From contig JANPZV010000005.1 of the NCBI GenBank assembly GCA_024707365.1, positions 682,001 to 746,000 on the forward strand: a stretch of DNA of 64,000 bases. The letters are read 5' to 3'. Made by a program: the position numbers and the translations under genes. Of the stretch, positions 18,766 through 37,657 are shown piece after piece. The notes beneath the pieces are model-generated. The model was not told the origin of the DNA and did no database searches. It saw nothing but the letters and a program-made list of their open reading frames with translations. The stretch is from Terricaulis sp. (GTDB lineage: Bacteria > Pseudomonadota > Alphaproteobacteria > Caulobacterales > Aquidulcibacteraceae). Numbering within the stretch: the first letter of the stretch is position 1; every line of letters starts with the position of its first letter.

Positions 18766-18788
18766 GGTGGACCGCCAAGTCCGATCGC

Positions 18789-18881
18789 TTACGCGATGAT
18801 TTGGGCGGCTTGGCCCATCGTCGCCATGGCGACGGGCGCGAAAACGAAAGCAGCGGCGATCAGGGAATAGAGCTTGGTCAT
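18789..18881 (-). CDS. Micro-peptide 1 of a five-member family (30 aa)
   Basis: A 30-aa product starting 'MTKLYSLIAAAFVFAPVAMA' and ending 'TMGQAAQIIA'. One Lys near the N-terminus, a hydrophobic stretch of about 17 residues and an Ala-Met-Ala motif at 18-20 fit either a single membrane helix or a Sec signal peptide that would release a 10-residue tail. It shares layout with four other genes in this window. The Shine-Dalgarno is GAGGAT. It follows micro-peptide 2 by 31 bp and precedes a strong terminator. No known family was recognised. Confidence 0.8.
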   Translation of the reverse strand: MTKLYSLIAAAFVFAPVAMATMGQAAQIIA

Positions 18882-18912
18882 CGGCGTGATCCTCGAAATC
18901 TGGATGGACAGG

Positions 18913-19008
18913 TTAGGCGACGATCTGCGCGGCTTGGCTCATCACCGCATAGGCGACGGGGGCCATCACGAAAGCGGCGGCGATCAGGCTGTAAAACTTG
19001 GCGGTCAT
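18913..19008 (-). CDS. Micro-peptide 2 (31 aa)
   Basis: It begins 'MTAKFYSLIAAAFVMAPVAY' and ends 'AVMSQAAQIVA'. It is nearly identical to micro-peptide 5 at 37475. The Shine-Dalgarno AAGGAG lies 9 bp before ATG and partly overlaps a 12-bp-stem hairpin in the leader (19021-19048). It is the first gene of a two-peptide transcript. The Ala-Tyr-Ala at 19-21 is a plausible signal-peptidase I site. The family repeats at three loci with the same promoter block, which argues strongly that these tiny frames are real genes. Confidence 0.83.
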   Translation of the reverse strand: MTAKFYSLIAAAFVMAPVAYAVMSQAAQIVA

Positions 19009-19020
19009 TGGCTTGGCTCC

Positions 19021-19092
19021 TTCATCGAAGCGCCATCGCTTCGATGAACAGAACCTACCCAAGCCCCGCTTTGGCCGCTGTGACCTCGGGCA
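19021..19092 (-). promoter_or_regulatory. Conserved promoter and leader hairpin, peptide locus A
   Basis: On the minus strand GTCACAGCGGC (19074-19084) is followed at fixed distance by GGGTAGGTTCTGTTCATCG. The hairpin TTCATCGAAGCG-ATGG-CGCTTCGATGAA then abuts GGAG. The GTCACAGCGGC...TTCATCG spacing (32 nt after CACAGCGGC) is identical at 21.8 and 37.6 kb. The hairpin could control access to the ribosome site. The upstream end reaches to within 5 bp of the gltP stop. Confidence 0.7.
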
Positions 19093-19096
19093 CGCC

Positions 19097-20416
19097 CTAA
19101 GCGGCCGGGGTGAACGGCTCTTGCTCAGGCCCCGGCTCGGGATCCTTCTCGCCTTTGGAGACGATGGTGGCGAGCACCAGATCGCCCGTCACGTTCAGCG
19201 TTGTGCGGCACATGTCGAGGAAGCGGTCCACGCCCAGCACAAGCCCAATGCCTTCCACCGGCACCCCCACCATCAGCAGGATCATCGCCACCACCGGCAG
19301 CGAGCCGGCGGGCACGCCAGCGGTGCCGATGCCGCCCAGGATGCACACCAGCATGACAATCAATTGCTGCTGCAAGGAAAGATCGACACCGAAGAATTGC
19401 GCCAGGAACAGCACGGTCACGCCCTCAAACAGCGCGGTGCCGTTCTGGTTGGCGGTGGCGCCGACGGTGAGCACAAAGCGCGCAATCTTGCGCGGCAGCT
19501 TGAGCTCGGTTTCCGCCGCTTGCAGCGCCACGGGCAGGGTGGCGTTGGAGGAGGCGGTGGAGAACGCCACCACCATCGGATCGCGCACGTGCTTGAAGAA
19601 CGTCAGCGGATTGCGGCCCGCCATCACCGACACCAGGATCGGATAGACCACGAACATATGCACCGCCATCGCCCCGACGGCGACAGCGACGAACGCGGCA
19701 AGCCGCAGCAGCAATTCCCAGCCGAACAGTGCAGCGAGGTTGAACATCAGGCACGCGATCGCCAGCGGCGCGATTTTGATGACAAGCCCGATCAGCTTCA
19801 TCATCACCTCGAACACACCCGCTAGCGTCAGCTGCAATTGATCGGTGGCTTTGGAGCGCACCATCACAAGGCCGATGCCAAAGAACAATGCGAACACCAT
19901 CACGGGCAGCACTTGGTTTGCTGCTGCGGCGGCGAAAGCGTTGGAGGGCACGAGATCGAGGAAGAATTGGCCGGCGTTCACGCTTTCGGGCGCGCCCTGA
20001 ATGATCCCGGCGGCGCCGCTGGCGCCATCCTCCAGCATCTGCTGCGCCAGCACAGGATCGACGCCCCGGCCCGGCTGGAACACGTTCACCGCCACAAGCC
20101 CGATCACCACCGCGATGGTGGAGACAAGGATCGTCAGCGCCAAGGTGCGCCAGCCCACGCGGCCGAGCGAGCCCAGATCGCCCATCTCCGCCACGCCGAC
20201 GACGAGCGCGGAAAACAGCAGCGGCAGCACCAGCATGAACAGAAGGCGCATGAAAATCTGGCCGATCGGCCCGGTGACGTTCGCCGTCAGCCATTGCACC
20301 CAGCCGGCGTCCGCCCCGGCGCTTAGGTGCACGATCATTCCGCCCACGAGGCCGATCAGGAACCCGCCGAGCATCAACACGTGCAGCGGGATGCCGAAAA
20401 TCTTGGTCGAGTCCAT
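19097..20416 (-). CDS. Dicarboxylate/amino acid:cation symporter (DAACS)
   Basis: Inner-membrane carrier of the GltP/DctA family for glutamate, aspartate or C4-dicarboxylates. The start at 20416 ('MDSTKIFGIPLHVLMLGGFL') gives 439 aa. The in-frame upstream extension is the antisense of the YciI-type gene and is not coding. Diagnostic motifs are the serine-rich hairpin 'AFSTASSNATLPVALQ' and the 'GATANQNGTALFEGV' substrate/cation site. About eight hydrophobic segments are visible. It is divergent from the YciI gene. Confidence 0.92.
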   Translation of the reverse strand: MDSTKIFGIPLHVLMLGGFLIGLVGGMIVHLSAGADAGWVQWLTANVTGPIGQIFMRLLFMLVLPLLFSALVVGVAEMGDLGSLGRVGWRTLALTILVSTIAVVIGLVAVNVFQPGRGVDPVLAQQMLEDGASGAAGIIQGAPESVNAGQFFLDLVPSNAFAAAAANQVLPVMVFALFFGIGLVMVRSKATDQLQLTLAGVFEVMMKLIGLVIKIAPLAIACLMFNLAALFGWELLLRLAAFVAVAVGAMAVHMFVVYPILVSVMAGRNPLTFFKHVRDPMVVAFSTASSNATLPVALQAAETELKLPRKIARFVLTVGATANQNGTALFEGVTVLFLAQFFGVDLSLQQQLIVMLVCILGGIGTAGVPAGSLPVVAMILLMVGVPVEGIGLVLGVDRFLDMCRTTLNVTGDLVLATIVSKGEKDPEPGPEQEPFTPAA

Positions 20417-20593
20417 AATTCCCCCAAGGCGGTGTTCATCGGGCCTAGCGGCGCAGGCGGGCTGGATCAACCTAAACTGGTCGAAACCTCGCCAGCCCGC
20501 CAGGGGCGGCGCCTTTCCGTGGGCGCCGAATTGTCGGGCGCGGCCAATGCGCGGCGTCTTAGAGAGAGAGACGAGCGAGAAGGAAGAAACCCG

Positions 20594-21025
20594 ATGCGCG
20601 TGATCGTGTTTGTGAAAGCCACCGCCGATAGCGAGGCGGGCGCTCAGCCCAGCGCCGAGCTGATCGAGGAGATGGACAAGTTCAATGCGTTGCTGATCGA
20701 GGCCGGTATCATGAAGAGCGGCGATGGGCTCAAACCTTCGTCCTTCGGCAAGCGCGTGGCGTTTGACGGCGCCTCGCGCACGGTGATCGATGGGCCGTTC
20801 GCGGAGACGAAGGAATTGGTGGCCGGCTTCTGGCTCTGGGAGGTGAAGGATATGGAGGAGGCGCTTGTGTGGGTGAAGCGCTGCCCCAATCCGATGCCGG
20901 GGCCGAGCGAGATTGAAATCCGCCCGGTGATCGAGTTCGAGGATTTCCTCGAAACCTTCGCCGAAAACATGACGCCCGAGGCCGAAGCCATCCATCGCGC
21001 CAACGCCGAGAAGATCGAGCCCTGA
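20594..21025 (+). CDS. YciI family protein
   Basis: A 143-aa protein of the YCII/DGPF family. 'MRVIVFVKATADSEAG' starts the ferredoxin-like fold and 'VIDGPFAETKELVAGFWLWE' is the DGPF signature. The start at 20594 follows an AGAAGGAAG ribosome site. Members of this type often sit with ECF sigma factors or act in stress responses, but none is adjacent here. The function is unknown. Confidence 0.88.
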   Translation: MRVIVFVKATADSEAGAQPSAELIEEMDKFNALLIEAGIMKSGDGLKPSSFGKRVAFDGASRTVIDGPFAETKELVAGFWLWEVKDMEEALVWVKRCPNPMPGPSEIEIRPVIEFEDFLETFAENMTPEAEAIHRANAEKIEP

Positions 21026-21046
21026 CGCCTCGCGTGTGGTGGCCGC

Positions 21047-21580
21047 TCACGCCTCCGGCCGCGCATCTTTCTTAGCTTGCGCCACCGCCTGGGCTTTGCG
21101 CAGGCGGCCGCGCTCCATCGGCCGGATGAGGCTGCGGACCTTGGTTTTGCTGATGTCGCGCATGCCTTTGTGGGTGGTGCGGGAGTTGAAGCCTTCCTCG
21201 GCTTCAGCTTCCGCCGCCTGTTTCAATTTCAGCGCCTTGCGCGCGCCAGCCGCGGTGGCGATTTGCGCGTTCATGCGGCGGCGGCGCGCGAGCTCGGCGT
21301 TGAGCCGGCGCACGGCGTTCGCCAGCACGGCGGTTTTCAGTTTGGAACCTTCATCAGCTTTGGACGGCGTCGCGCCTTTGGCCGCGCCCTTGCCGCGCAT
21401 CTCGCGGCGGCGCTGGCTGGCTTGATCCTTGGCTTTGCTGCGGCGCTCACGCAGCAGCGAGAGCAGATTGGCGAGTTCCTTATCGGTTTGCGCCTGCAGC
21501 GCCGGGTGGTGGGATTTTTCCACCAAGGCGCGCTCATCGGCGGAAAGGGCGCGGGCTTCTTGTTTCTGCGTGATCGCCAT
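21047..21580 (-). CDS. Conserved basic protein of unknown function
   Basis: A 177-aa, highly charged and largely helical protein. 'HPALQAQTDKELANLLSLL' begins the conserved-looking part, then 'RERRSKAKDQASQRRREMRG', a Lys/Ala-rich middle, and 'RTTHKGMRDISKTKVRSLIR' at the end. No enzyme motif or membrane segment is visible. Strong basic content hints at nucleic-acid binding (inference). It is convergent with the YciI gene with 21 bp between stops. Confidence 0.72.
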   Translation of the reverse strand: MAITQKQEARALSADERALVEKSHHPALQAQTDKELANLLSLLRERRSKAKDQASQRRREMRGKGAAKGATPSKADEGSKLKTAVLANAVRRLNAELARRRRMNAQIATAAGARKALKLKQAAEAEAEEGFNSRTTHKGMRDISKTKVRSLIRPMERGRLRKAQAVAQAKKDARPEA

Positions 21581-21633
21581 CGGCTTCTCCCTGTTGTTTA
21601 AAAAACAGCTAGGCCGGGCGGCGTCAGAATCAA

Positions 21634-21660
21634 TGAAGGCCCGGATCGCTCCGAGCCTTC
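21634..21660 (-). terminator. Hairpin downstream of micro-peptide 3
   Basis: GAAGGCTCGG and CCGGGCCTTC (minus strand) form a 10-bp stem with an AGCGAT loop, 26 bp after the micro-peptide 3 stop. It lacks a clear T tract, so termination is only likely. Confidence 0.5.
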
Positions 21661-21685
21661 AATCATTCTGCATACGCATGCGAAC

Positions 21686-21775
21686 TCACACCATTTGCGC
21701 CGCTTGGCCGAGGATCGACATCGCCAGGGGCGTGAACACCGCCGCCGCCGCGATCAAGGAATAGAGCTTCATCAT
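21686..21775 (-). CDS. Micro-peptide 3 (29 aa, single copy)
   Basis: It starts 'MMKLYSLIAAAAVFTPLAMS' and ends 'ILGQAAQMV'. It is a diverged member of the same family as 18789 and 18913: Lys at position 3, 'LYSLIAAA', Pro at 16, and the tail 'GQAAQ'. A GGGAGAAA ribosome site precedes the tandem ATG codons. The promoter block is the same as at the other two loci. It stands alone rather than in a pair. Confidence 0.75.
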   Translation of the reverse strand: MMKLYSLIAAAAVFTPLAMSILGQAAQMV

Positions 21776-21857
21776 CTGGTTTCTCCCGCCGGATCACCGC
21801 GACCCGATGAAGAGAAGATAAGCCCAGCTTTTCCGAGCCGCTGTGCCCTTGGTCACA
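21776..21857 (-). promoter_or_regulatory. Conserved promoter block, peptide locus B
   Basis: GGCACAGCGGC (21837-21847, minus strand) is followed by GGGCTTATCTTCTCTTCATCG with exactly the spacing seen at loci A and C. The leader hairpin is weaker here. Conservation of motif and spacing while the bases between differ suggests a functional promoter. Confidence 0.62.
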
Positions 21858-21953
21858 CCATGAAGCTGAAGCGCGATTTCCCCAGCGCAAGCAAAGATTA
21901 ACAAGAATTGCGCTACCCTTTGCGTTCGCAAAGCAGGCTGCGGGGAGGCGGAC

Positions 21954-23207
21954 GTGCAGGGCGTGATGTATGGGCGGCGGCTGGAAGGCCAAGCCGCGCT
22001 CGATCTTCTCATGGAAGTGGTTGAGCGGCTCGGCGCCGCTGAGGACGAAAAAGCCGTGGCTGCGCTTGTGCGCACGGCGGCGCGCCGGCTAACGGGCGCT
22101 GACGGCGTGAGCGTGGTTCTGCGCGTCGGCGATCGCGTGCACTACATTGATGAGGATGCGGTTGGCCCTCTCTGGAAGGGCCAAAACTTTCCGATCGAAG
22201 CCTGCATATCTGGCTGGGCGATGCTCAATCGCCAAACCGTGGTGATCTCCGATATTTCGGGCGACCCGCGCATTCCGCTGGCGGCGTATCAGCCAACATT
22301 TGTGAAAAGCCTCGTCATGGCGCCGGTCGGCATGCCGGAGCCGTTTGCTTCGATCGGCGCCTATTGGGCGCAAAAGCGCCGCCCAGAAGATGAGGAGGTG
22401 CGCGCGCTCGAAACCATCGCCCGCGCCGCTTCGGTGGCGATGGAGAATGTGCGCTTGCGCCGCGCGCTCGGCGCGGCCCTGCATCGCGCCGAAAGTGCTG
22501 AGCGCGCGCAAGGCGTATTCCTGGCGCAGATGAGCCGGAACATTCGTGTGCCGCTGGCCGGCATCGCTAGCCTCGCTGAATTGTTGGAGCGTGTGCAGGT
22601 CAATCCGAAAGATCGGCAGTTGGCGAGTTCGCTGCGGACCTCCGCCGAAGATGTTGAGCGCTTGGTGCGCGATGTGCTCGATTACGCGGAAATCGAAGGC
22701 GCGCAGCGTTCGCGCTTTCCTGCACCGTTTCATTTGGAGGCGGCGGTGCGCGTGGGCGCGGCCCCGCACGTCACGGACGCCACGCGGCGGGGGCTTAATT
22801 TCTCGATCGACGTGGCGCCCGAGGCGGCGGAGATTTTTGTCGGTGACGGCGCGCATGTGCAGAAGATGGTCGATTTGCTTGTAGCGTATGCAGTGAAGAA
22901 CACTGTGCAGGGCGCGGTTCGGGTGCGCATCGGTGAAATCGAGCGGCTGGGCGTACGCTCCATGTTCGAGTTGAGCGTGACCGCGTGCGGGCCTTGCTTC
23001 GCGGCGGCGGCCGAGCGCTATGAGCAAGGCCTCCCTGCCGATAGCGCGGGGCTCGATCTTGCGGTGGCCGAAGCGCTCGCCCGCGCGATGGGCGGAACGC
23101 TGAACATCAACGTCACCATGGAAGACGGCCGCGTGCTGGTGCGCTTCCCGCTCGAAATGCCGATGGATGAGGTGACGGAGCGGCGCCTGATGCGCGCCAT
23201 CGCCTGA
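21954..23207 (+). CDS. GAF-domain, degenerate histidine-kinase-like protein
   Basis: A 417-aa protein with a GAF-like sensor domain (about residues 15-165, 'ERLGAAEDEKAVAALVRTAA'), a short coiled segment, a HisKA-like dimerisation region and a C-terminal ATPase-like region. The H-box reads 'MSRNIRVPLAGI', so the phospho-accepting His is replaced by Arg. The N-box region 'MVDLLVAYAVKNT' lacks the usual Asn, and no clear glycine box is visible. It is probably a pseudokinase or a phosphotransfer-related scaffold. GTG at 21954 is chosen because GGGGAGG lies just upstream. Confidence 0.75.
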   Translation: MQGVMYGRRLEGQAALDLLMEVVERLGAAEDEKAVAALVRTAARRLTGADGVSVVLRVGDRVHYIDEDAVGPLWKGQNFPIEACISGWAMLNRQTVVISDISGDPRIPLAAYQPTFVKSLVMAPVGMPEPFASIGAYWAQKRRPEDEEVRALETIARAASVAMENVRLRRALGAALHRAESAERAQGVFLAQMSRNIRVPLAGIASLAELLERVQVNPKDRQLASSLRTSAEDVERLVRDVLDYAEIEGAQRSRFPAPFHLEAAVRVGAAPHVTDATRRGLNFSIDVAPEAAEIFVGDGAHVQKMVDLLVAYAVKNTVQGAVRVRIGEIERLGVRSMFELSVTACGPCFAAAAERYEQGLPADSAGLDLAVAEALARAMGGTLNINVTMEDGRVLVRFPLEMPMDEVTERRLMRAIA

Positions 23208-23981
23208 TTAGCCCAGCTTGCTGAAATCGGGCGTGCGCCGCTCCATGAAGGCGGCGAAGGCTTCGGCGGCTTCGGGTGAGCGCAAGCGCTCGCTGAACAC
23301 GGCCATTTCCTCTTTCATTCGCGCTTTGGCGGCGTGCGTATCACGCATCAGCGCTTTGGTGAGGCGCAGCGCTTCGGCCGGCTTTTGCGCAAGCGCATGC
23401 GCGGCGGCGCGTGCGCGCGGTTCGACTTCCGCCGGCGGCAGGGCGGCGTTGGCGATGCCGAGGCGCGCCGCTTCCGCGCCGCGCAGCGGCTCGCACAGGC
23501 CGAGCATTTCAAACGCCCGCACATGGCCGATGCGGCCGGGCAGGGTGAGGCTTGAGGCGTTTTCCGGCACGAGCGCGAGATTGACGAACGGGGTGATGAG
23601 GCGCGCCGCCTCGGCCACATAAACCAGATCGCAATGCAGCAGCATGGTGGCCCCCACGCCCACCGCATCGCCCTGGACGGCGGCGATCACCGGCTTTTCC
23701 GCTTCGATCATGCGCTCAAGAAAGCGTTCCACATGGCGCGGGCCCGCGAAAGCGCCGCTGTTCTGCGCGGCAAAATCCATGAGATCATTGCCGGCGCTAA
23801 AGAGATCGCCCTCAGCCGTGATCAGGATCGCGCGCACGGTTTTATCTGCGGCGGCAGCCTCGAATCCGTCTGCGAGCGCGGCGTACATCATATTGGTGAT
23901 GGCGTTTTTCTTCGCGGGCCGGTTGAAGCGGAGCTCCAGCAGCGCGCCGTCGCGGCGTGTCAGGATGTCGGTGTCGCTCAT
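23208..23981 (-). CDS. Enoyl-CoA hydratase/isomerase family protein
   Basis: Crotonase-fold protein of 257 aa. 'LRFNRPAKKNAITNMMYAAL' and 'GDLFSAGNDLMDFA' supply the first oxyanion-hole and CoA-binding strand. 'AVQGDAVGVGATMLLHCD' gives the second. The later 'PFVNLALVPENASS' is more like delta3,delta2-enoyl-CoA isomerases than hydratases. No adjacent fatty-acid genes are seen. The reaction is not certain. Confidence 0.9.
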   Translation of the reverse strand: MSDTDILTRRDGALLELRFNRPAKKNAITNMMYAALADGFEAAAADKTVRAILITAEGDLFSAGNDLMDFAAQNSGAFAGPRHVERFLERMIEAEKPVIAAVQGDAVGVGATMLLHCDLVYVAEAARLITPFVNLALVPENASSLTLPGRIGHVRAFEMLGLCEPLRGAEAARLGIANAALPPAEVEPRARAAAHALAQKPAEALRLTKALMRDTHAAKARMKEEMAVFSERLRSPEAAEAFAAFMERRTPDFSKLG

Positions 23982-24054
23982 CTTATATCCTTTGCTGGCC
24001 TGCTTTTAGCACGCATGCGCCATCGCGCGAGACGTGGCCCAAGGGAAACCTGCA

Positions 24055-24088
24055 AAGCAAAAGCGGCCGCCCTTTAGGGGGCGGCCGC
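24055..24088 (-). terminator. Intrinsic terminator of pckA
   Basis: On the minus strand GCGGCCGCCCCC-TAAA-GGGCGGCCGC forms a strong stem followed by TTTTGCTTTG, about 30 bp after the pckA stop. Confidence 0.8.
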
Positions 24089-24116
24089 TCCGGCGTTTCG
24101 ACCCTTATCGTCTTTT

Positions 24117-26018
24117 TCAGTTCGGCGCGGCGGCGTCGCCTTTGGCGCTCACTTTGGAGCTGGCCGGGCCGCGCGCGGCGGCGGCCTTCAGCGTGCCCGC
24201 GCGCGCATCTTTCAGCCGCGCGGTGAGCGCCTTGTGCTCATCCCAGAGCCGCTTGGGCAGCTTTGCGCCGAACTTTTCATAGTGCGGCACAACCAAAGCA
24301 GCTTCCTCATCCCACACATCGAGATCGACGCCGAGCAGAGTGTTGAGCGCTTCGTCGCTGAGCTTGAGGCCGGAGAGATCAAGCGCTTCCTTGGTGGGGG
24401 TGAGGCCGATTGCGGTCTCTTGTGCCTCGGCCTGGCCGTCGAGGCGCTCGGAAATCCATTTCAGCACGCGGCTGTTATCGCCAAAGCCGGGCCACACGAA
24501 CGCGCCGTCGCGATCTTTGCGGAACCAATTGACGAAGAAAATCTTCGGCAGCTTGGCGCCTTTGCGCTCACCCACCTTCAGCCAATGCGCGAAATAATCG
24601 CCCATATGATAGCCGCAGAACGGCAGCATCGCGAACGGGTCGCGGCGCAGCTCGCCCACTTTGTTTTCGGCGGCGGCGGTGCCCTCGGAGGCGACGTTCG
24701 AGGCCAGGAAAACCCCGTGCGCCCAATCGAACGCTTCGGTCACCAGCGGCACGGCGCTGGCGCGGCGGCCGCCAAACAGGATCGCGTCGATCGGCACGCC
24801 CTTGGGATCTTCCCATTCAGGCGCGATCACCGGGCATTGGCCGGCGGGCACGGCAAAGCGCGCGTTCGGGTGCGCGGCGGGGAATTTGGTGTCGGCCGCC
24901 ACATAGCGCTGGCCTTGCCAATCGGTGAGCCCGGCGGGCGGCTCTTTGGAGAGGCCTTCCCACCACACATCGCCATCGTCGGTCAGCGCCACGTTCGTGA
25001 ACACGGTGTTGGCGTAAAGCGTATCGAGCGCGCTCTTATTGGTTTTCGCGCCGGTGCCGGGCGCAACGCCGAAGAAGCCCGCTTCGGGATTGATGGCGTA
25101 GAGCCGGCCATCATCGCCAAAGCGCATCCAGCAGATGTCGTCGCCGATGGTTTCGGCTTTCCATCCTGGAATGGTGGGTTGCAGCATGGCGAGATTGGTT
25201 TTGCCGCACGCGCTGGGGAAGGCGGCGGCGATATATTTGTGCTCGCCTTCGGGATTGGTGAGCTTGAGGATGAGCATGTGCTCAGCCAGCCAACCCTCAT
25301 CGCGCGCCATCACCGAGGCGATGCGCAGCGCGTAGCATTTCTTGCCCAAGAGCGCGTTGCCGCCATAGCCGGAGCCGTAGGACCAAATCTCGCGCGTTTC
25401 AGGGAAATGGACGATCCACTTTTCTTCATTGCAGGGCCAGGCCACGTCCTTTTGCCCAGCGGCGAGCGGCGCGCCGACCGTGTGCACAGCCGGGACGAAG
25501 AAGCCGTCTTCGCCCATTTGATCGAGCGCGCCCTTGCCCATGCGCGTCATGATGCGCATCGAGGCGACGACGTAGCCGGAATCGGTGATCTCAACCCCGA
25601 GCTGGGAAATCTTTGAGCCCAGCGGGCCCATGCAGAACGGCACGACATACATCGTGCGCCCGCGCATGCAGCCGTCAAACAATTCGTTCAGCTTGCCGCG
25701 CATCTCGCCCGGCGCGATCCAATTGTTGGTGGGGCCGGCGTCTTCCTGCTTTTCCGAGCAGATGTAGGTTTGCTTCTCGACGCGCGCGACGTCCTTCGGG
25801 TCGGAGGCGGCGTAGAAAGAATTGGGGCGCGCTTCAGGGTTAAGGCGCTTGAGCGTGCCGGCGGCGACGAGCTCGTTGGTCAGCCGCTCCCACTCGGCTT
25901 CGGAGCCATCGCACCAATAGACGCGATCAGGCTTGGCGAGGGCGGCGATCTCTTCCACCCATTTTACGAGTTTGGCGTGTTTCGTAGGGGCCGGGTGCAG
26001 GCCGGGAATGTCAGTCAC
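24117..26018 (-). CDS. pckA: Phosphoenolpyruvate carboxykinase (GTP)
   Basis: Converts oxaloacetate and GTP to PEP, the committed gluconeogenic step. The 633-aa size and motifs are of the GTP-dependent class: '[13 protein letters not shown]' (kinase-1a loop with the reactive Cys), '[13 protein letters not shown]' and '[18 protein letters not shown]'. The C-terminus has a low-complexity Ala/Lys tail. A long 5' region with a candidate promoter/operator lies upstream. PpsR elsewhere in the window regulates the PEP synthase/PPDK node of the same pathway. Confidence 0.95.
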
Positions 26019-26244
26019 GGAATCCTCCGGGGGCGTTCAAGCGCTGCTTTACGCATCTCTTGTGCCCAGGAGCCGCTTGCGCGACGGCATGTCAAACCTG
26101 TTCTGCGCAATAGATTTTGCCGACCGCAATTGCCACCGGTGGCAACGGCGATCGCAAAGCTGATCTGCACAATCAGCTCGCGCAGAACAATTGCAGCGCG
26201 GCGCTTTGCCTCGGGAAAAGGCGCGCGCTGTTTTGTCCGCGCTA

Positions 26245-26278
26245 CAGATGGTAGCGCTAACGCTAGTGCTGTCAAGTT
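26245..26278 (-). promoter_or_regulatory. Candidate promoter with LacI-like operator upstream of pckA
   Basis: On the minus strand TTGACA is followed by a sequence holding TAGCG-TTAG-CGCTA, an inverted repeat of the AGCGCT-centred style used by LacI-family regulators. It sits right after the upstream DUF885 gene stop, about 230 bp before pckA. The remaining 26019-26244 stretch shows no convincing gene. The regulator is not in the window. Confidence 0.45.
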
Positions 26279-28111: not shown

Positions 28112-28187
28112 CTTGGTTCCCCCGAGTGAAAAACGCACCGCATCGTAAAGGCAGCAGCCCCGTGCTCAAACCGCTTGCGATGAAGCG

Positions 28188-28976: not shown

Positions 28977-29024
28977 GGGGGCTGTTTGCAGGCTTTGAAG
29001 CCATTTGTCCAAAAACGAAGGAGC

Positions 29025-29189: not shown

Positions 29190-29194
29190 AGTGA

Positions 29195-29223
29195 CATATA
29201 CAACACAAGTGCGAATTTTTCAA
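29195..29223 (-). promoter_or_regulatory. Sigma-70-type promoter (TTGAAA-N17-TATATG)
   Basis: On the minus strand the -35 TTGAAA (29218-29223) and -10 TATATG (29195-29200) are separated by 17 bp. There is no protein start within 200 bp downstream, which supports an RNA product. Confidence 0.6.
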
Positions 29224-29281
29224 GGATCGCCAAGGGAAATTCCTTGCAACGTTCAGCAACGCGCGGCAGGCCGCGCGGCCT

Positions 29282-29950: not shown

Positions 29951-30108
29951 GAGGCTCATGTGGCCGAAACGCGCGGCGGAAAAAAGGGTTCGCGGCGCCC
30001 AGAAATGGTCTTTTTGCTTCAGCTTGGGTTCATCTGAGCGGTGTTGGCGCTTGGAATCTGGCGCTTGCGGGCGCTTGATCGCCCGAACATGCGATTCGCG
30101 GGGGCGGC

Positions 30109-30789
30109 ATGACGCCATTTTTGGACACGCAGGGGCTGAAATCCGTGGGCTGGCACGGCTTTCAGGATTTGACCTGGATGGCCGGCGCGCTTGGGGCGCT
30201 GACGCTGGCGGTGGCGCTTGGCGCGCTGCTCGCCTTCCACCCCACCACGCGCCGCAGCGTGGATACGCGCGAAGAGGCGGAGCTGCCGAAGGTGTCGATC
30301 ATGTACGCGCTGGTGGGCGCGGTGGTCGGCGTTGTCGTGCTCGAATACGGGATCGTGATCGGGTTTATTGTGTTCGGGCTTGGCGGGCTCATGCGTTTCC
30401 GCACCGATCTCAATTCCACGCGCGATACCGGCCGGCTCATCATCGTGACGCTGATTGGGCTGATCGCGGGGCTGAATCTGCCGCATTTCGCGGTGCTGAC
30501 CACGGCCTTCGCCTGGGGGCTGATCTATGTGTTCGACGGGCATCCGGTCTATGAGCTTGAGGTGCACGATATTCCCAAGGGCAAGGTGAAAGAGGCGGCC
30601 GCCGCCTATCGCGCCATCCTTGGCGAAGAAAAATGCGTGCTGATCAGCGAGAACAAATCCTTCTCCAAGAGCCGGGTCGATTTTGTTTTCCGCGCGCCGC
30701 GCAAAAGCAGCCAAGCGGGCTTGCATCAGGCGCTATGCGACCGCGTGCCGCCCGATCTGCGCGGGGAGATCGATTGGGAGGTAGAGTAG
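30109..30789 (+). CDS. DUF4956/MgtC-like membrane protein
   Basis: A 226-aa protein with an N-terminal membrane segment (residues 23-45), two or three more helices (about 60-130) and a soluble C-terminal domain of about 85 residues. The signature 'GLGGLMRFRTDLNSTRDTGR' followed by 'LIIVTLIGLIAGL' resembles DUF4956 proteins, which in other bacteria occur with polyphosphate polymerases. No such partner is present here. The family call is from pattern memory. Confidence 0.65.
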   Translation: MTPFLDTQGLKSVGWHGFQDLTWMAGALGALTLAVALGALLAFHPTTRRSVDTREEAELPKVSIMYALVGAVVGVVVLEYGIVIGFIVFGLGGLMRFRTDLNSTRDTGRLIIVTLIGLIAGLNLPHFAVLTTAFAWGLIYVFDGHPVYELEVHDIPKGKVKEAAAAYRAILGEEKCVLISENKSFSKSRVDFVFRAPRKSSQAGLHQALCDRVPPDLRGEIDWEVE

Positions 30790-30834
30790 CGACATACCAT
30801 TGGAACTCGAGCCGTTTGGCGGTATCGTGTTCAG

Positions 30835-31572
30835 ATGTCGCTTGCCTTGCGCCTCTCCTCTGCGATCGACCTCTCAGCTTATGCTGCGGAATATCAAGCG
30901 CGCGGCATGGTGCAGGTGCAGGGCCTGTTCACGCCTGAAAGCGCCGAGGCGCTCAGCACGCTGCTCACCAAGCACACGCCCTGGCGGCAGACATTCCTGG
31001 ATGAAGGCAAGCCGGTGAGCTTCACGGAAGCTGGCATCGCCCAGGTCGGCCAGGCGGCGTATCGCGCCAAGATGATCAAGGTGCTCGAAAACGGGCGCAA
31101 AGCCTATGGCTACAATTTCTTCCACTATCCGATGAGCCAGGCGCAGCATCAGGGCTGGGATCCTGGCCATTCCATCCACGGCGTGACCGCGTTTCTGAAC
31201 GGGCCGGATTTTCTTGATCTTGGCCGCGCGGTCACGGGCGTGGGCGCAATCAACAAAGTGGAGGCGATGGCCTCGCTCTACGCGCCGGGCAGTTTTTTGA
31301 CCCGCCATGTCGATCATGGCGATGGCGCGCGCCGCGCGGCTTACGTGATCGGGCTCTCAAAGGAGTGGCAGCCTGATTGGGGCGGGCTTTTGCTGTTTTA
31401 CGACGGTAAGGGCGATGTTGCGGGCGGGTACGCGCCGCGCTTCAACGTGGTGACGATCTTCGACACCAAGCACGAGCACGCCGTGACGCAAGTGGCGAAT
31501 TTCGCCGGCGCCAGCCGCTATTCCATCGCCGGCTGGTTCAGGGACGATCGGAGCGAGCGCGTGTTCGGCTAG
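30835..31572 (+). CDS. 2OG-Fe(II) oxygenase (prolyl 4-hydroxylase-like)
   Basis: A double-stranded beta-helix dioxygenase of 245 aa. The iron site is visible: 'HVDHGD' near residue 159 gives HxD, and 'KHEHAV' near 213 gives the distal His. 'ASRYSIAGWFRDD' carries the 2-oxoglutarate Arg/Ser. 'LYAPGSFLTRHVD' is typical of P4H-like proteins. It starts 45 bp after the DUF4956-like gene on the same strand. The substrate is unknown. Confidence 0.88.
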   Translation: MSLALRLSSAIDLSAYAAEYQARGMVQVQGLFTPESAEALSTLLTKHTPWRQTFLDEGKPVSFTEAGIAQVGQAAYRAKMIKVLENGRKAYGYNFFHYPMSQAQHQGWDPGHSIHGVTAFLNGPDFLDLGRAVTGVGAINKVEAMASLYAPGSFLTRHVDHGDGARRAAYVIGLSKEWQPDWGGLLLFYDGKGDVAGGYAPRFNVVTIFDTKHEHAVTQVANFAGASRYSIAGWFRDDRSERVFG

Positions 31573-31578
31573 CGCGCC

Positions 31579-33979
31579 CTAATCCTTCTCCACCTCATCC
31601 AGCAGAATATCCCGTTTCCCGGCTGCGTTCGCCTCCGAGATGATGCCGGCTTTTTCCATTTTTTTCGATCAGCGTCGCGGCGCGGTTGTAGCCGATGGAG
31701 AGGCGGCGTTGGAGGTAGGAGGTTGAGGCTTTGCGGTCGCGGCGGACGATCTCGATCGCGCGGTCGAACAGATCGCCGTCGCCGCCTTCGCCGTCGCTGA
31801 ACAGCTCGGGATTGTCGCTGTCGGCGTTTTCGCCGGGCTCTTCGGTGACATCCTGGCGATAGACGGGTGCGCCTTGCGATTTCAGCATGGCGACCACCCG
31901 CTCGACTTCAGCGTCGGTCACGTAGGGGCCGTGGAGGCGGCGGATGCGGCCCCCGCCCGCCATGAACAGAAGATCGCCCTGGCCGAGCAATTGCTCGGCG
32001 CCTTGCTCGCCCAGGATGGTGCGCGAGTCGATCTTGGAGGTGACTTGATACGAAATGCGCGTGGGGAAATTGGCCTTGATCGTGCCGGTGATGACATCGA
32101 CCGAGGGGCGTTGCGTGGCCATGATCACGTGAATGCCGGCGGCGCGCGCCATTTGCGCGAGGCGCTGCACGGCGGCTTCGATTTCCTTGCCGGCGGTGAT
32201 CATCAGATCCGCCATCTCGTCGATGACGACGACGATATAGGGCATCGGCTCAAGCGGCAGCTCGCGCGTTTCGTAGATCGGCTCGCCGCTGGTGGGGTCA
32301 AAGCCCGCATGCACGGTGCGCTCCAGGCGCTCGCCGCGCTCCATCGCTTCGCGCACGCGATCATTGTAGCCGCTGATATTGCGCACGCCGAGCTTGGACA
32401 TGGAGCGATAACGCCCCTCCATCTCGCGCACGACCCATTTCAGCGCCACCACGGCTTTCTTCGGATCGGTGACGACCGGGTGCAGCAGGTGCGGGATACC
32501 CTCATAGACGCTGAGCTCCAGCATCTTGGGGTCGATCATGATGAAGCGGCACTCATCGGGCGTGTGCCGATAGAGCAGCGACAATATCATGGCGTTGATG
32601 CCAACGGATTTGCCCGAGCCGGTGGTGCCGGCGATGAGCAGGTGCGGCATCTTGGTGAGATCGGCGGCGAAGGGATCGCCTTCGATGGTTTCGCCCAGCG
32701 CCAGCGGCAGATCGCCCTGCGTGCCGGCGAAGCTGGTGCTGTTGAGCAGCGAGTTGAGATACACCGTTTCGCGCTTGGCGTTCGGCAATTCGATGCCGAT
32801 GGCGTTGCGGCCGGAGATCACCGCCACGCGCGCGGCGCTGGCGTTCATGGTGCGGGCGATGTCTTCGGCAAGGCCGATCACGCGCGAGGATTTCACGCCG
32901 GCGGCGGGCTCGAACTCAAACAGCGTCACAACCGGGCCGGGGCGCGCGGAGAGCACTTCGCCCTGCACGCCGAAATCAGCCAGCACGCCTTCGAGCTGAC
33001 GGCTCATGGCGTGCAGCGTTTGCGCATCGGTTTGTGTGATGCGCTGTTTGGGCATCGAGAGCAGATCTGTGTCGGGCAACTCGAACGCACGGCCGAAGCT
33101 GAAGCTGTTTTGCTCGGCTTGGCGGCGTTTCTCGGCGCGGGGCGCTGGCCGCTCTCGCCGGGGGGCCTCTTCGCGCGCGGGGGCGCGTTCGCGCATGATC
33201 GGCGCGCGTTGGCGCGGCTGCGGTTGCGGCGGCGCTTCGCGCATGGGGCGCGGCGCTTCGACGTGGGCGTTCTCTCCCTCGTATTCTTCTTCGTATTCGG
33301 GCTTGCGGGCTTTTTCCGCGACATAGCCGATGGCGCGCTGCGCGCCGGTGCTGGCGCCGGTGGCGGCGCGGTGCGCGATGGCGGCGGCGTTGCGCACGTC
33401 CTCGGCGCGCACTTGGTAAGCCCAGCCGACGCACAAGACGCCAGCGGCGGCGCAGAGCAGGCCGGTGAGCACGTGCGGGAACGGCAGGCCTGGCATGGAA
33501 GCAAGACCGGAGATCATCCCAGCGAGGCCATCGCCGAGCACGCCGCCGAAGCCTGCGGCCAGCGGCCAGCCTTCGGGCGTCGGGATCGTGGAAGCGGCGG
33601 CGGCGAGCAGCCACACCCCGCCCGATGCGGCGAGGATGCGCCGGCCATTGATGCGCGCCACCAATTGGCGGCGCACGATGCGCAGAATGCCGGCGGCGAG
33701 AATGGCGCCCATGGCGAGATACGCCGCCGCGCCCAGCATCTGGATCGACACGTCGGCCAGGAGCGCGCCGGGGCCGCCGAACAAATTGTGCGTCGGGCCC
33801 GAGGTGGAAACATTCAGGCTTGGATCTTCCGGCGAGTAGGTGAGCACCGCACCCAGGCCATAGGCGCCGAATATGGCCGCGCCCACGGAAAGCGCCGCCC
33901 GCTTGAGCGCAAGGCGCGCCGCGGCCGAAGTGCTGATCGCCGGGCTTCTGCCCGTCTGGTTAAAGGCTTGGTCAGTCAT
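31579..33979 (-). CDS. ftsK: DNA translocase FtsK (frameshifted near the end)
   Basis: Septal DNA pump that clears the terminus and activates XerCD recombination. Four N-terminal membrane helices (residues 25-190), a charged Pro/Arg linker, a motor domain with Walker A '[13 protein letters not shown]' near residue 450 and Walker B '[13 protein letters not shown]', and a C-terminal gamma domain ('[20 protein letters not shown]'). At the T7 run 31659-31665 an extra base breaks the last 30 residues. Correction restores '[20 protein letters not shown]' and a stop at 31579. Confidence 0.94.
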
Positions 33980-34132
33980 GCTTTTAGGGCGCCCGCTTCG
34001 TGCCGCGTCTCGATGCGGGACTCTTCGCTTTCCCGGTAAACGACCAGTGAAGATTCGGACGCGAACAGAGTTACTGAGGCGTTCATGTGTGAACGCGCGC
34101 CGGCGTTAATGTTTGCGATGCGCAAAGAAAGA

Positions 34133-34158
34133 GGCGCGGTTCGTTGCCGAACCGCGCC
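34133..34158 (-). terminator. Intrinsic terminator of amtB
   Basis: GGCGCGGTTCG/CGAACCGCGCC stem with a TTGC loop. On the minus strand it is followed by TCTTTCTTTG, about 30 bp after the amtB stop. Confidence 0.75.
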
Positions 34159-34186
34159 CTGAGTACACTTGGGAGAGATCGTTGTC

Positions 34187-35605
34187 TTAGGAGTGGTAAG
34201 CGGACTCGCCGTGCTCGGCGTAATCCAGGCCTTCTTGTTCCACTTCCTTTTTTACCTTGAGGCCGAAGATCGACATCACGGCGAAGGTGATCGCGGTGGC
34301 CACGGCCACCCAGATGATCGAAACGACGACCGCTTTCACCTGGATGATGGTTTGCGCGACGATGTCGTAGGTTTGGCCATCTTCCAGGCCCCAACCGGCG
34401 GTGCCGCCGAATTGCGGGGCGGTGAGAATGCCCGTGCCGATGGCGCCGATAATGCCGGCCACGCCGTGGATGCCGAACACATCATAGGCGTCGTCATAGT
34501 TCAGCGCTTGCTTGATGCCGGCGCAGAAGATGACGCAGATCGGGCTGGCGATCAGGCCGAGCACGATCGAGCCGATCGGGCCGACGAAACCAGCCGCCGG
34601 GGTGATGGCGACGAGGCCGGCGATGACGCCGGACGCGAAGCCAAGCCCGCTCGGCTTGCCCTTGGTGACCCACTCGGTGAGGATCCAGCTGAACGCCGCA
34701 GCGGCTGTGGCCAGCAGCGTGTTGACGGTGGCGAGGCCCGCTTGGCCGCCGGCCGCGCCAGCAGAGCCGGCGTTGAAGCCGAACCAGCCCACCCACAGCA
34801 GCGCCGCGCCGATATAGGTCAGCACCAGCGAATGCGGCGGCAGCGGGTCTTTCTTGTAGCCCAGGCGATGGCCGGCGAAGATCGCGCCGACAAGGCCGGC
34901 GACGCCCGCATTGATGTGCACCACGGTGCCGCCCGCGAAATCGAGCGCGCCGTCTTCAGCCAGCATGCCGCCGCCCCACACCATGTGCGCCAGCGGGTAG
35001 TAGGAAAGCAGCGGCCAAAGGATCGCGAAAATCACGATCGGGAAGAATTTCACCCGCTCGGCGAATGCGCCAACCGCCAGCGCCGCGGTGATCGCCGCGA
35101 ACGTCATCTGGAAGGAAACAAACACAAATTCAGGGATGTTCGAGAGCACGGAAGATGGATCATCCATGCTGATGCCCGCCAGGAAGAACTTATCGAACCC
35201 GCCGATAAAGGCGTTCATCGGCCCTTCGGTGAAGGTGAGCGAAAAGCCCCAGAGCGCCCAGGTGATGAAGCCGATAATGGCCACGGTGGACACTTGCATG
35301 ATCACCGAAAGCACGTTCTTGGACTGGGCAAGCCCGCCATAGAACAGCGCCAGGCCCGGCAGGATCATCAGCACGACCAGCACGGTCGAGGTGAGCATCC
35401 AGGCGGTGTCGCCGGCGCTGATCTCAGCAACCTCTTCCACCACCTCTTCGACGACCTCGACAGCCGCCTCAGGCGCCGCTTCTTCCACAACGACGGCCTC
35501 GGCCGGCGCTTCCTGCGCAAACGCTAGCTCAGGCGCCGCGACACCAAGCGCGAAGGCGGCGACAAGCGCCGCGCCTCCGAGCCTCAATGTGTTCCAAAAT
35601 TTCAT
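34187..35605 (-). CDS. amtB: Ammonium transporter
   Basis: Trimeric inner-membrane ammonium channel. The start at 35605 (GAGGGAG upstream) gives 472 aa. It has a signal peptide (about 30 residues, cleavage after AFA), then an unusual acidic Glu/Val/Ala-rich segment of about 33 residues before the first membrane helix. Core motifs are 'GDTAWMLTSTVLVVLMILPG', 'FYGGLAQSKNVLS', 'DFAGGTVVHINAG' and 'YDDAYDVFGIHGVAGIIGAI', which carries a pore His. No glnK is adjacent. A perfect palindrome GCAACGCGTTGC (35694-35705) lies 90 bp upstream and may be regulatory. Confidence 0.94.
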   Translation of the reverse strand: MKFWNTLRLGGAALVAAFALGVAAPELAFAQEAPAEAVVVEEAAPEAAVEVVEEVVEEVAEISAGDTAWMLTSTVLVVLMILPGLALFYGGLAQSKNVLSVIMQVSTVAIIGFITWALWGFSLTFTEGPMNAFIGGFDKFFLAGISMDDPSSVLSNIPEFVFVSFQMTFAAITAALAVGAFAERVKFFPIVIFAILWPLLSYYPLAHMVWGGGMLAEDGALDFAGGTVVHINAGVAGLVGAIFAGHRLGYKKDPLPPHSLVLTYIGAALLWVGWFGFNAGSAGAAGGQAGLATVNTLLATAAAAFSWILTEWVTKGKPSGLGFASGVIAGLVAITPAAGFVGPIGSIVLGLIASPICVIFCAGIKQALNYDDAYDVFGIHGVAGIIGAIGTGILTAPQFGGTAGWGLEDGQTYDIVAQTIIQVKAVVVSIIWVAVATAITFAVMSIFGLKVKKEVEQEGLDYAEHGESAYHS

Positions 35606-35786
35606 TACCCCGCTCCCTCTTGGCTGGTCGCCGCAGATTGGTTGACGGGATCGCGCGCGCGGCAAGGCGGCGCGGGCCGCTGAATTGTGCAGCGCAACGC
35701 GTTGCTTATTTTTTGTGCAGAGAGACTAACCCTTGCGCGCTGCAACCGCATCGACGCTTGGGTGACAGAGGCGTAATTGGTTGGTC

Positions 35787-37034
35787 ATGAGCAACGGTTT
35801 TGATGCGGACGTGATTCTGGGCGGCGGCGGGCTCGTCGGCCAGACCTTGGCGCTGGCTTTGGACCAGGCCGGGCTTTCGGTGGCGGTGATTGACGCCTCC
35901 AAACCAGCCGAAACCCTGGCGCCGGCGTTTGACGGGCGCGCCTTCGCCATTGCCTTCGCCTCCTACCGGATGTGGCGGGCGCTCGGGCTGGGCGAGGCGC
36001 TGGACGCTGTGGCCCAGCCGATCCGGCAAATCCTGGTCACGGATGGCGATCTCACGCGCGGCGGGCCAAGCCCGCTTTACCTGCATTTCGACGGGGCCGA
36101 GCAAGAGGAGCCGGACGAGCCGCTGGGCCTCATGCTGGAAGCGCGGCATGTGCGGCAGGCGCTGGATGCGGCGGTGAAGCGCCGGCCCTCGATCCGCATG
36201 ATCCAGCCGATGTCCGTCAGCGGGTTTGAGCGCGATGCGGCGGGCGTGTGGGTGGCGCTGGCCGATGGCTCAAGCTTGCGTGCGCCGCTGCTGATTGGCG
36301 CGGACGGGCGCCGCTCCTTCGTGCGCGAAGCGGCGGGCATCCGCACCATTGGCTGGCAATATCCGGTGACGGCGATCGCCGCCACCATCGCGCATGAGAA
36401 GCCGCACGAGGGCGTGGCGCACGAATATTTTCTGCCCGCCGGGCCGTTCGCGATTTTGCCATTGAAAGGCGAGCGCGCGAACATCGTCTGGGCCGAGCCG
36501 CGCGCGGCGGCCGAAGCGCTGCTGGCGATGAGCGAAGAAGATTTCCTGGCGGAGCTGCGCTTGCGCTTCGGTGATTTTCTTGGCCGGCTTTCCTTGGAAG
36601 GCCCGCGCTTTGGCTACCCGCTTTCGATGCAATTGGCTGAGCGCATGATCGATGATCGCATCGCGCTTGCCGGCGATAGCGCGCACGGGATTCATCCGCT
36701 GGCGGGGCAAGGCTTGAATCTAGGTTTGAAAGATTGCGCGGCGCTGGCCGAATGCATCGCCGATGGCGTGGCGGTGGGGCTTGATCCCGGCGATGTCTCG
36801 ATCCTTGAGCGCTATCAGCGCTGGCGCCGGTTCGACAACACGACGATGGCGCTCGGTATGGAAGCGTTCGACAAATTGTTCTCCAATTCGCTTCCGCCTT
36901 TGCGCACCGCGCGGCGCGTGGGGCTGGCGGCGGTGAACGCGGTTGGGCCGGCGCGACGGTTTTTCATGAAATACGCGGGCGGGGCGGCTGGGGATTTGCC
37001 GAAGCTGCTGCGCGGGGAGAGCTTGGCGGCTTAG
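35787..37034 (+). CDS. UbiH/UbiF/COQ6-family FAD monooxygenase
   Basis: Flavin-dependent hydroxylase of the ubiquinone ring. The 415 aa begin with the FAD-binding 'ILGGGGLVGQTLALAL', have 'LIGADGRRSFVREAAG' (DG motif) and 'GDSAHGIHPLAGQGLNLGL' (GD motif with the UbiH-specific extension). It is divergent from amtB across 181 bp. Which ring position it hydroxylates cannot be told from sequence alone. Confidence 0.9.
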   Translation: MSNGFDADVILGGGGLVGQTLALALDQAGLSVAVIDASKPAETLAPAFDGRAFAIAFASYRMWRALGLGEALDAVAQPIRQILVTDGDLTRGGPSPLYLHFDGAEQEEPDEPLGLMLEARHVRQALDAAVKRRPSIRMIQPMSVSGFERDAAGVWVALADGSSLRAPLLIGADGRRSFVREAAGIRTIGWQYPVTAIAATIAHEKPHEGVAHEYFLPAGPFAILPLKGERANIVWAEPRAAAEALLAMSEEDFLAELRLRFGDFLGRLSLEGPRFGYPLSMQLAERMIDDRIALAGDSAHGIHPLAGQGLNLGLKDCAALAECIADGVAVGLDPGDVSILERYQRWRRFDNTTMALGMEAFDKLFSNSLPPLRTARRVGLAAVNAVGPARRFFMKYAGGAAGDLPKLLRGESLAA

Positions 37035-37107
37035 TGCTGCTGCTCGGCGGGGAAGCGTGTTAGGTTTGAGGCTAGGCCGGAGCGGACGCTCGCGATTTTG
37101 TTTCCCA

Positions 37108-37210
37108 CCCATCCCCGGATTGCGCGAGAGCGCAAGTCCGGGGCCCATCACCTCATATGCTTGTGTTCTTGGGCTCCGGGCTCGCAGCTTCGCTGCGCCC
37201 CGGAGATGGG
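37108..37210. repeat. Composite double-hairpin repeat, copy 2
   Basis: It has the same architecture as 12358-12486: CCCAT border, hairpin CCCCGGATTGCGC-GAGA-GCGCAAGTCCGGGG (arms at 37112-37143), spacer, hairpin CTCCGGGCTCGCAGC-TTC-GCTGCGCCCCGGAG (37174-37205), ATGGG border. It occupies the gap between the UbiH-like gene and the peptide genes. Confidence 0.72.
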
Positions 37211-37269
37211 AGGAAGTGTTTCTCCTTCCGGCGAAGGGCCGACCCCGAAAAATCAGCGTCCTTGTTCGC

Positions 37270-37311
37270 AAAAATAAAACGGGCGCGGAGGCCTTTCGGC
37301 TTCCGCGCCCG
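37270..37311 (-). terminator. Intrinsic terminator of peptide genes 4-5
   Basis: On the minus strand CGGGCGCGGAAGCC/GGCCTCCGCGCCCG is followed by TTTTATTTTTG. The 14-mer GGACCGCCAAGTCC is again found between gene and hairpin, as at locus A. Confidence 0.82.
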
Positions 37312-37348
37312 CGTGGGACCGCCAAGTCCCCGTCGCGTTCGAGGGATC

Positions 37349-37441
37349 TTACGCGACGATTTGAGAAGCTTGGTTGAGCGTGACCATCGCCATCGGGGTG
37401 AACACGGCGATCGCGGCGATCAGGGCGTAAAACTTGGTCAT
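37349..37441 (-). CDS. Micro-peptide 4 (30 aa)
   Basis: It starts 'MTKFYALIAAIAVFTPMAMV' and ends 'TLNQASQIVA'. It is the second gene of the 37.4-kb pair, equivalent in position to micro-peptide 1. It shares 'KFYALIAA', Pro at 16 and the tail 'QAxQIVA'. It differs at about a third of positions from micro-peptide 1, so the two pairs are not a recent simple duplication. A terminator follows 38 bp later. Confidence 0.8.
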   Translation of the reverse strand: MTKFYALIAAIAVFTPMAMVTLNQASQIVA

Positions 37442-37474
37442 GGGGCGGGCTCTCTAAATTCGGGGCTGGGCTGA

Positions 37475-37570
37475 TTAGGCGACGATTTGGGCGGCTTGGC
37501 TCAGGATCGCGTAGGCGGCGGGGGCCATCACGAAAGCGGCGGCGATCAGGCTGTAAAACTTGGCGGTCAT
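37475..37570 (-). CDS. Micro-peptide 5 (31 aa)
   Basis: It starts 'MTAKFYSLIAAAFVMAPAAY' and ends 'AILSQAAQIVA'. It differs from micro-peptide 2 at only three residues. The same GAAGGAGCCAAGCC leader precedes ATG. It is the first gene of the pair. Strong conservation of the first gene and weaker conservation of the second suggest distinct roles. Confidence 0.83.
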   Translation of the reverse strand: MTAKFYSLIAAAFVMAPAAYAILSQAAQIVA

Positions 37571-37582
37571 TGGCTTGGCTCC

Positions 37583-37657
37583 TTCACTCGAAGCGGCAGC
37601 GCTTCGATGAACAGAACCTACCCGCGCCTAGGCCCGGCCGCTGTGACCTGGGGCACG
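37583..37657 (-). promoter_or_regulatory. Conserved promoter and leader hairpin, peptide locus C
   Basis: GTCACAGCGGC (37637-37647, minus strand), fixed 32-nt spacing to TTCATCG, then a hairpin with CGAAGCG/CGCTTCG and GGAG, as at locus A. The IS1595-family element is inserted at its upstream edge, with the target duplication at 37646-37653. Confidence 0.7.

Follow-up and report, generated by a model that had tools for sequence, protein, structure and literature searches.

A multi-copy family of predicted 30-residue hydrophobic peptides in Terricaulis and related genomes, with CRP-type promoters and 3' untranslated regions complementary to the first-gene start

The 64,000-nucleotide stretch of the Terricaulis sp. 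genome analyzed here (contig JANPZV010000005.1, positions 682,001 to 746,000; the window) carries five very short genes on its minus strand, which were found to belong to a large family of peptide genes dispersed over related genomes. In the explanation that we favour, at a probability of roughly 0.45, these operons are activated by a CRP-family regulator and encode single-helix membrane peptides of type I toxin-like character, the first cistron being held back by pairing between the 5' and 3' ends of its mRNA. The wider proposal of a new regulon, in which a CRP-type activator is devoted largely to this one dispersed membrane-peptide family with its two-gene operons locked at the first start codon by a co-evolving 3' untranslated region (3'UTR), is put forward more tentatively. 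The first reading of the five genes, made in an earlier note, was that of a family of small hydrophobic peptides of 29-31 residues under selection, and this is supported by the sequence comparisons below; the peptides are presumably translated. The five window genes are as follows.

18913..19008, minus strand: pair A, first gene, 31 residues, MTAKFYSLIAAAFVMAPVAYAVMSQAAQIVA
18789..18881, minus strand: pair A, second gene, 30 residues, MTKLYSLIAAAFVFAPVAMATMGQAAQIIA
37475..37570, minus strand: pair B, first gene, 31 residues, MTAKFYSLIAAAFVMAPAAYAILSQAAQIVA
37349..37441, minus strand: pair B, second gene, 30 residues, MTKFYALIAAIAVFTPMAMVTLNQASQIVA
21686..21775, minus strand: single-gene operon (singleton), 29 residues, MMKLYSLIAAAAVFTPLAMSILGQAAQMV

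The frames were recovered where the earlier note had placed them, with the stop codon counted in (30, 31, 29, 30 and 31 residues in order of position), as was their layout of two pairs (18789-19008 and 37349-37570) and one singleton (21686-21775). Of the shared motifs described there, the N-terminal pattern is present in all five peptides, whereas the tail Q-A-x-Q-(I/M)-V holds in four and fails in 18789-18881, which reads QAAQII-A; alignment of the five gave 13 invariant columns. Likewise, ribosome sites with GGAG precede both first genes and the singleton; those of the second gene in each pair are weaker. Terminator-like hairpins lie 3' of pair A, pair B and the singleton as claimed, and a stricter terminator scan of the two pairs called the hairpin of pair A and missed that of pair B.

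A profile built from the five window peptides detected six further copies elsewhere in the same genome (E 1.5e-16 to 1.2e-4); the five queries match by construction, and the last two matches listed (E 0.3 and 1) are non-members. Matching frames proved abundant in related genomes: after removal of artefacts of de-duplication, 219 distinct copies were counted in 145 operons, 72 with one gene, 72 with two and one with three. At least two of the one-gene operons (L054 and L152) carry an extended second gene left out of this count, with an alanine/glutamine-rich N-terminal extension (MHPQAAQ..., MHPHAAH...) ahead of the membrane segment and no start codon at the usual place. Within the genus, 29 of 30 genomes carry copies, the own genome being among those counted, and within the GTDB family 36 of 60 do; the largest number per genome was 25 matches at a threshold of E <= 1 and 24 when this was tightened to E <= 0.01. 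Across the 398 genomes of the order, E <= 0.001 returned these 36 genomes and three weak ones; the latter, outside the GTDB family, were not accepted as members, their E values of 1e-4 to 6e-4 being near chance among 398 genomes.

A degenerate DNA pattern, built after the larger family had been seen and catching only part of it, found three of the five window copies and nothing in 100 shuffles. A degenerate peptide pattern, which likewise catches only part of the family, matched 41 stretches across one genome each of 84,980 species, all in metagenome-assembled genomes titled Hyphomonadaceae, Caulobacterales or Alphaproteobacteria with the exception of one Hydrogenophilaceae. In that exception (L091, JACAEE010000034.1) the match positions are identical to those in G069, a genome of the same GTDB family as the window, and the record is probably mislabelled. 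A mobile element was rejected as the main reading, since in 34 of 48 loci more than 500 nt of translated flank is shared with a family locus of another genome and the peptide pattern (which catches three of the five window copies) has no exact match in viral contigs.

Selection on the peptide, proposed in the earlier note, is borne out by the substitution pattern. The collection before clean-up was drawn from 196 sequences (loci and window), with profile matches below 14 bits left out and four further matches excluded (one with a long C-terminal extension, three without a start near the expected place); it held 222 distinct copies and 191 distinct peptides, 178 of the 222 copies being exactly 30 residues long. 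On 174 distinct 30-codon genes, with paralogues and orthologues mixed, the median pairwise ratio of non-synonymous to synonymous substitution rates (dN/dS) ranged from 0.21 to 0.50 by divergence bin, and 48 gene pairs encode an identical peptide with different DNA. No internal stop was seen among the matches listed, in a search that reads through stops. These results, together with the uniform length, argue against a function of the RNA alone with the reading frames as passengers, a reading for which the conservation of the UTR elements in position and partner could be adduced and which we regard as highly improbable. No accepted match to the peptides was obtained in Pfam, NCBIfam or PHROGs, and no known RNA family was detected in the peptide operons in Rfam at gathering thresholds, in agreement with the statement that no described family was recognised; no literature on this peptide family was found in a search that covered few subscription journals. 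The photosystem family PsbX (PF06596) was rejected, as it scored 14.2-16.9 bits for three of the five window peptides, did not match the other two and has a curated cut-off of 25 bits.

The composition of the peptides points to insertion into a membrane. Of 153 distinct 30-mers, 152 have a basic residue, K or R, in third position, and 144 are free of K, R, D and E from position 4 onwards; A18 is present in all 153, A10, Q24 and A25 are almost invariant, and the best-conserved positions include A10, A18, Q24-A26 and I28-A30. A structure model from the window's five sequences gave one helix over residues 2-29 (predicted local distance difference test score, pLDDT, 85), a model in which membrane helix and signal peptide are indistinguishable. 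Composition and model together suggest a membrane location. They could also describe a precursor from which signal peptidase I, cutting after residue 20, would free a decapeptide (e.g. TLNQAAQIVA) with a signalling or structural role. The charged residue at position 3, the hydrophobic core, P16 (in 133 of the 153), the invariant A18, the bulky and variable residue 19 and the small residue 20 (A, G or S in 120) fit such a precursor, and the released tail would be among the best-conserved parts; the pattern at residues 18-20 resembles what we take to be a signal-peptidase I site. Residue 20 is, however, P in 17 and V in 10 of the 153, so the cleavage site is not universal, and the tails of paralogues are much alike, and we consider a precursor role unlikely.

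The proposed activation of the operons by a CRP-family regulator starts from their promoters, which in the window are composed of the following elements.

19080..19093, minus strand: pair A, CRP-type palindrome, GTGCCCGAGGTCAC
19052..19057, minus strand: pair A, -10 element TAGGTT, predicted transcription start A at 19045
37643..37656, minus strand: pair B, CRP-type palindrome, GTGCCCCAGGTCAC
37615..37620, minus strand: pair B, -10 element TAGGTT, predicted transcription start A at 37608
21843..21856, minus strand: singleton, CRP-type palindrome with one half-site mismatch, GTGACCAAGGGCAC
21815..21820, minus strand: singleton, -10 element TATCTT, predicted transcription start A at 21808

A palindrome that agrees in 7 or more of 10 positions with TGTGA-N6-TCACA, the form of mycobacterial Crp sites (PMC7739888, in excerpt), precedes 130 of the 145 operons. 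Its centre lies 29 bp upstream of the -10 hexamer, taken as the best one within 10 positions, in 128 of these 130, and the hexamer reads TAnnnT in 126. The consensus of the 128 aligned sites is GTGnC-N4-GTCAC with G-7, C-3, G+2, A+5 and C+6 invariant, and the distance of about -41.5 from the predicted start suggests a class II layout. Exact matches to the site pattern occur in the window only at the three operons. Used alone, this (class 1) promoter pattern matched 34 times in five genomes but never in the reversed control, and family peptides follow 30 of the 34, 24 by coordinates and six by reading (L241, L250, L255, L256, L258 and L263), whereas L238 and L239 have no family peptide downstream. 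The matches L243 and L246 precede other short hydrophobic frames, in L243 (G023:C1:1730309) a 43-residue frame unlike the family behind the same promoter architecture. The palindrome without the -10 element returned 43 rows in three genomes compared to 10 rows in the reversed control.

As the candidate for the protein acting at this site, a CRP-like regulator was identified whose orthologues (E <= 1e-49) are present in 33 of the 36 peptide-bearing genomes as compared to 2 of the 24 peptide-free ones. The orthologue from G027 comprises a cNMP-binding domain (PF00027, 5.1e-18) and a Crp helix-turn-helix (PF13545, 7.8e-15). Its recognition helix IGASREKVNRKL, which presumably retains the DNA-contact residues of E. 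coli CRP, was found in 29 of the 30 regulator loci fetched, the one exception being that of the own genome, where the regulator is split over two frames. In eight of the 30 loci a family-like peptide lies 3' of the regulator on the same strand. The closest solved relative, PDB 3d0s, which we take to be the CRP of M. tuberculosis, has the helix GASRETVNKAL compared to GASREKVNRKL in the candidate. The former is presumably a global regulator, whereas here about 21 of the 35 perfect-palindrome places in three genomes (a manual count) are promoters of family peptides. The FixK/FNR-like regulator L227 of the own genome was set aside in favour of the SREKVNR protein owing to its ETVSR helix, which we take to be of FNR type. 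Because site, spacing, recognition helix and co-occurrence point the same way, we infer that this CRP-family regulator activates the peptide operons via a class II site.

The second part of the favoured explanation concerns the two-gene mRNA, whose 3'UTR is complementary to the start of its own first gene. In the window, the same element was found behind both pairs.

18770..18781, minus strand: pair A, 3'UTR element GACTTGGCGGTC, 11 nt complementary to the first-gene start region GACCGCCAAGT
37317..37328, minus strand: pair B, 3'UTR element GACTTGGCGGTC, 11 nt complementary to its own first-gene start region

The pair A transcript folds with z -4.75, its start region being paired with the 3'UTR. 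Over 72 multi-gene operons, the longest uninterrupted complementarity of the first-gene start to the own 3'UTR averaged 6.57 nt compared to 5.84 nt for permuted partners (0 of 2000 permutations as good), the longest being 12 nt (L047, L136) and 11 nt (both window pairs, L043, L071). Similarly, the duplex energy over 73 multi-gene operons was -18.00 kcal/mol with the own 3'UTR and -15.91 kcal/mol with permuted ones (0 of 5000 as good), and among 28 non-redundant operons 1 of 5000 permutations was as good. The controls showed no excess, neither for the last-gene start (3127 of 5000) nor for codons 11-20 (4574 of 5000). In two-gene operons starting with MTAK, a match of 8-12 nt is present in seven of seven. 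Since operons starting with MTR or MIR keep the match with different letters, the complementarity is unlikely to reflect shared descent alone; in L071, L100, L065, L192 and L078 the start sequences differ and both sides have changed in step. A translational lock by 5'-3' pairing is suggested by these comparisons. As a further pairing, the loop CUUGGC was compared with GCCAAG before ATG and rejected: three pair operons carry both, five the loop only, two the site only and 62 neither, all three double carriers lie in the own genome, and the first-gene start region is the better partner.

The closest mechanism that we found in print is the fold-back inhibition of hok and aapA1, whose full-length mRNAs are kept untranslated by 5'-3' pairing (PMC8167048, in excerpt). 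As far as that excerpt goes, AapA1/IsoA1 and hok/sok resemble the present operons in encoding a short peptide, in their case a toxin that acts on the membrane (hok) or envelope (AapA1), and AapA1 also in having several chromosomal copies (AapA1-6). Unlike those systems, no antisense antitoxin RNA was seen here, and the mRNA carries two peptides and a CRP-type promoter. The comparison covers these traits, and toxicity is putative in the present case.

The terminators add a second possible contact with the ribosome site of the first gene. The window terminators are the following.

18728..18765, minus strand: pair A, terminator hairpin with the anti-Shine-Dalgarno (anti-SD) loop TGCTCCC
37271..37312, minus strand: pair B, terminator hairpin with a GAAA loop, without anti-SD loop
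21633..21661, minus strand: singleton, terminator hairpin with a GCGA loop

CTCC lies within the terminator hairpin in 53 of 73 multi-gene compared to 10 of 68 single-gene operons. GCTCC occurs in the terminator loop region of 20 of 86 family and 5 of 291 other terminators, and C follows GGAG in 102 of 129 family ribosome sites compared to 25 of 85 sites taken mechanically as GGAG upstream of other long open reading frames. Moreover, pairing of the loops with SD-bearing sites of the family is stronger (mean -12.3 kcal/mol) than with other such sites (-10.8 kcal/mol).

These loop statistics, like the CRP-type control, would equally suit non-toxic dual-function transcripts, in which the peptide binds and modulates a protein of the membrane or of metabolism and a C-rich RNA processed from the 3'UTR regulates genes including its own operon. 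The closest regulatory logic is that of VcdRP from Vibrio cholerae, which unites a peptide of 29 residues (VcdP), control by CRP and an RNA (VcdR) whose pairing segment has four cytosines, and which, like AzuCR of E. coli, combines a small protein and a pairing segment on one CRP-controlled RNA (PMC8672173, in excerpt). According to the same excerpt, both are repressed by CRP, have other mRNAs as their targets and encode peptides that bind GltA or GlpD, whereas here an activator-type site and many copies are found. In addition, complementarity was strongest with the start of the same operon, in an analysis in which other genes were not searched for targets. The flanks inspected gave no hint of a partner protein, no systematic search for interacting neighbours having been made: the shared flank genes of a recurrent single-gene locus appeared housekeeping-like by eye and indicated no function, and the window flanks include a dicarboxylate symporter and a YCII-domain protein, for which no link to the peptides was seen. 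On balance we hold the dual-function reading to be possible but doubtful. Two other systems share single traits: OppZ/CarZ are 3'UTR-derived RNAs in gene autoregulation (PMC7398697, in excerpt), whereas here multi-copy operons for tiny peptides are concerned and 3'UTR processing is putative; the five copies LhrC1-5 of Listeria stand under one regulatory system and have CU-rich binding sites, unlike the present family being small RNAs without a peptide family and under a different regulator (PMC4132741, in excerpt).

Following the favoured explanation of CRP-activated, RNA-locked membrane peptides, each operon would yield one or two hydrophobic peptides of about 30 residues with one N-terminal K or R and mostly no other charge, which may form a single inner-membrane helix with the C-terminus outside. 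Transcription would be switched on when the cyclic-nucleotide-responsive CRP-family regulator binds near -41.5. On the two-gene mRNA, two 3' elements would face the first gene's start in antiparallel order, the first, after the last stop codon, pairing with the start-codon region and the second, in many operons, pairing the C-rich terminator loop with the SD sequence GGAGC. This would block translation of the first cistron until the mRNA loses part of its 3' end or is remodelled, as in hok and aapA1, and the 3' fragment could act in trans on other copies. The outcome may be a CRP-controlled, dose-dependent shift in the state of the membrane or in energy status when carbon or energy is limiting; the use of type I toxin-like peptides for physiology, proposed by analogy as the likely role, is the least certain step.

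Several observations weigh against this explanation. The own-genome regulator lies in two frames (L326, G000:C6:173048-173732), through assembly error or decay; the peptide-bearing drafts G012, G013 and G069, which are 79-91% complete, lack the regulator, two of the three g25 genomes have it without peptides, and its co-occurrence with the peptides is confounded by shared ancestry. The remaining 15 operons have a GCATCC-N14-18-GCATCT promoter instead of the palindrome. A scan of the two window pairs found no sigma-70-like promoter on either strand, and thus none for an antisense RNA, which says little either way since the scan also misses the family's own promoters. The signal-peptidase-like site at residues 18 and 20 of most copies would suggest cleavage. 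As to the lock, no excess of pairing between start and 3'UTR was found in the single-gene operons, which make up half of the set (longest match in 71 operons 5.35 nt vs 5.42 nt permuted; duplex energy in 68 operons, 4944 of 5000 permutations as good). When full-length transcripts were folded, no more than 12 of 72 pair operons had at least 30% of the start region paired with the own 3'UTR, compared to 1 of 72 when each was given a single swapped 3'UTR. Moreover, of 72 starts only two had the own 3'UTR as best or tied-best partner and 10 had it among the five best.

The analysis brings to light a gene family with up to about 25 copies per genome together with a candidate regulator, as well as about a dozen strong, sequence-varied natural cases of self-complementarity between mRNA start and 3'UTR, on which one can test directly whether 3'UTRs evolve to keep their own start codons silent. 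If the wider regulon proposal is true, CRP would build a pool of silent mRNAs to be freed jointly by RNA processing, and if the peptides are toxin-like, they would form a large unrecognised chromosomal set in environmental alphaproteobacteria. To our knowledge, an RNA-locked, toxin-like peptide array of this kind has not been described in Caulobacterales.

Many leaders additionally begin with a hairpin, in the window as follows.

19021..19048, minus strand: pair A, 5'UTR stem-loop at the predicted transcript start, -18.6 kcal/mol, z -2.9
37583..37611, minus strand: pair B, 5'UTR stem-loop, -14.2 kcal/mol, z -1.0

The stem of pair A is strong and that of pair B ordinary, and the leader of the singleton folds differently. 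Of 120 distinct 5'UTRs, 76 have a stem of 6 bp or longer that lies no further than 6 nt from the predicted start, with 33 different arm pairs, whereas 200 mononucleotide shuffles gave a mean of 3.5 (standard deviation 1.8, largest 9).

The single-gene operons L029, L030, L033, L062, L060 and L085, several of which sit at one conserved locus, share a common 3'UTR of roughly 75 nt, in the clearest cases CTGACCTGAA..TCCCAGGCC..GGCGCAAGAA.CAGGCAGA, which looks like a separate conserved RNA. The second promoter class, with a GCATCC-N16-GCATCT direct repeat that also occurs elsewhere in these genomes, serves mostly divergent members (L045, L046, L037, L041, L042/L110, L158, L179, L091, L109 and L121). 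Finally, the window contains a tRNA gene at 45442-45513 on the plus strand.

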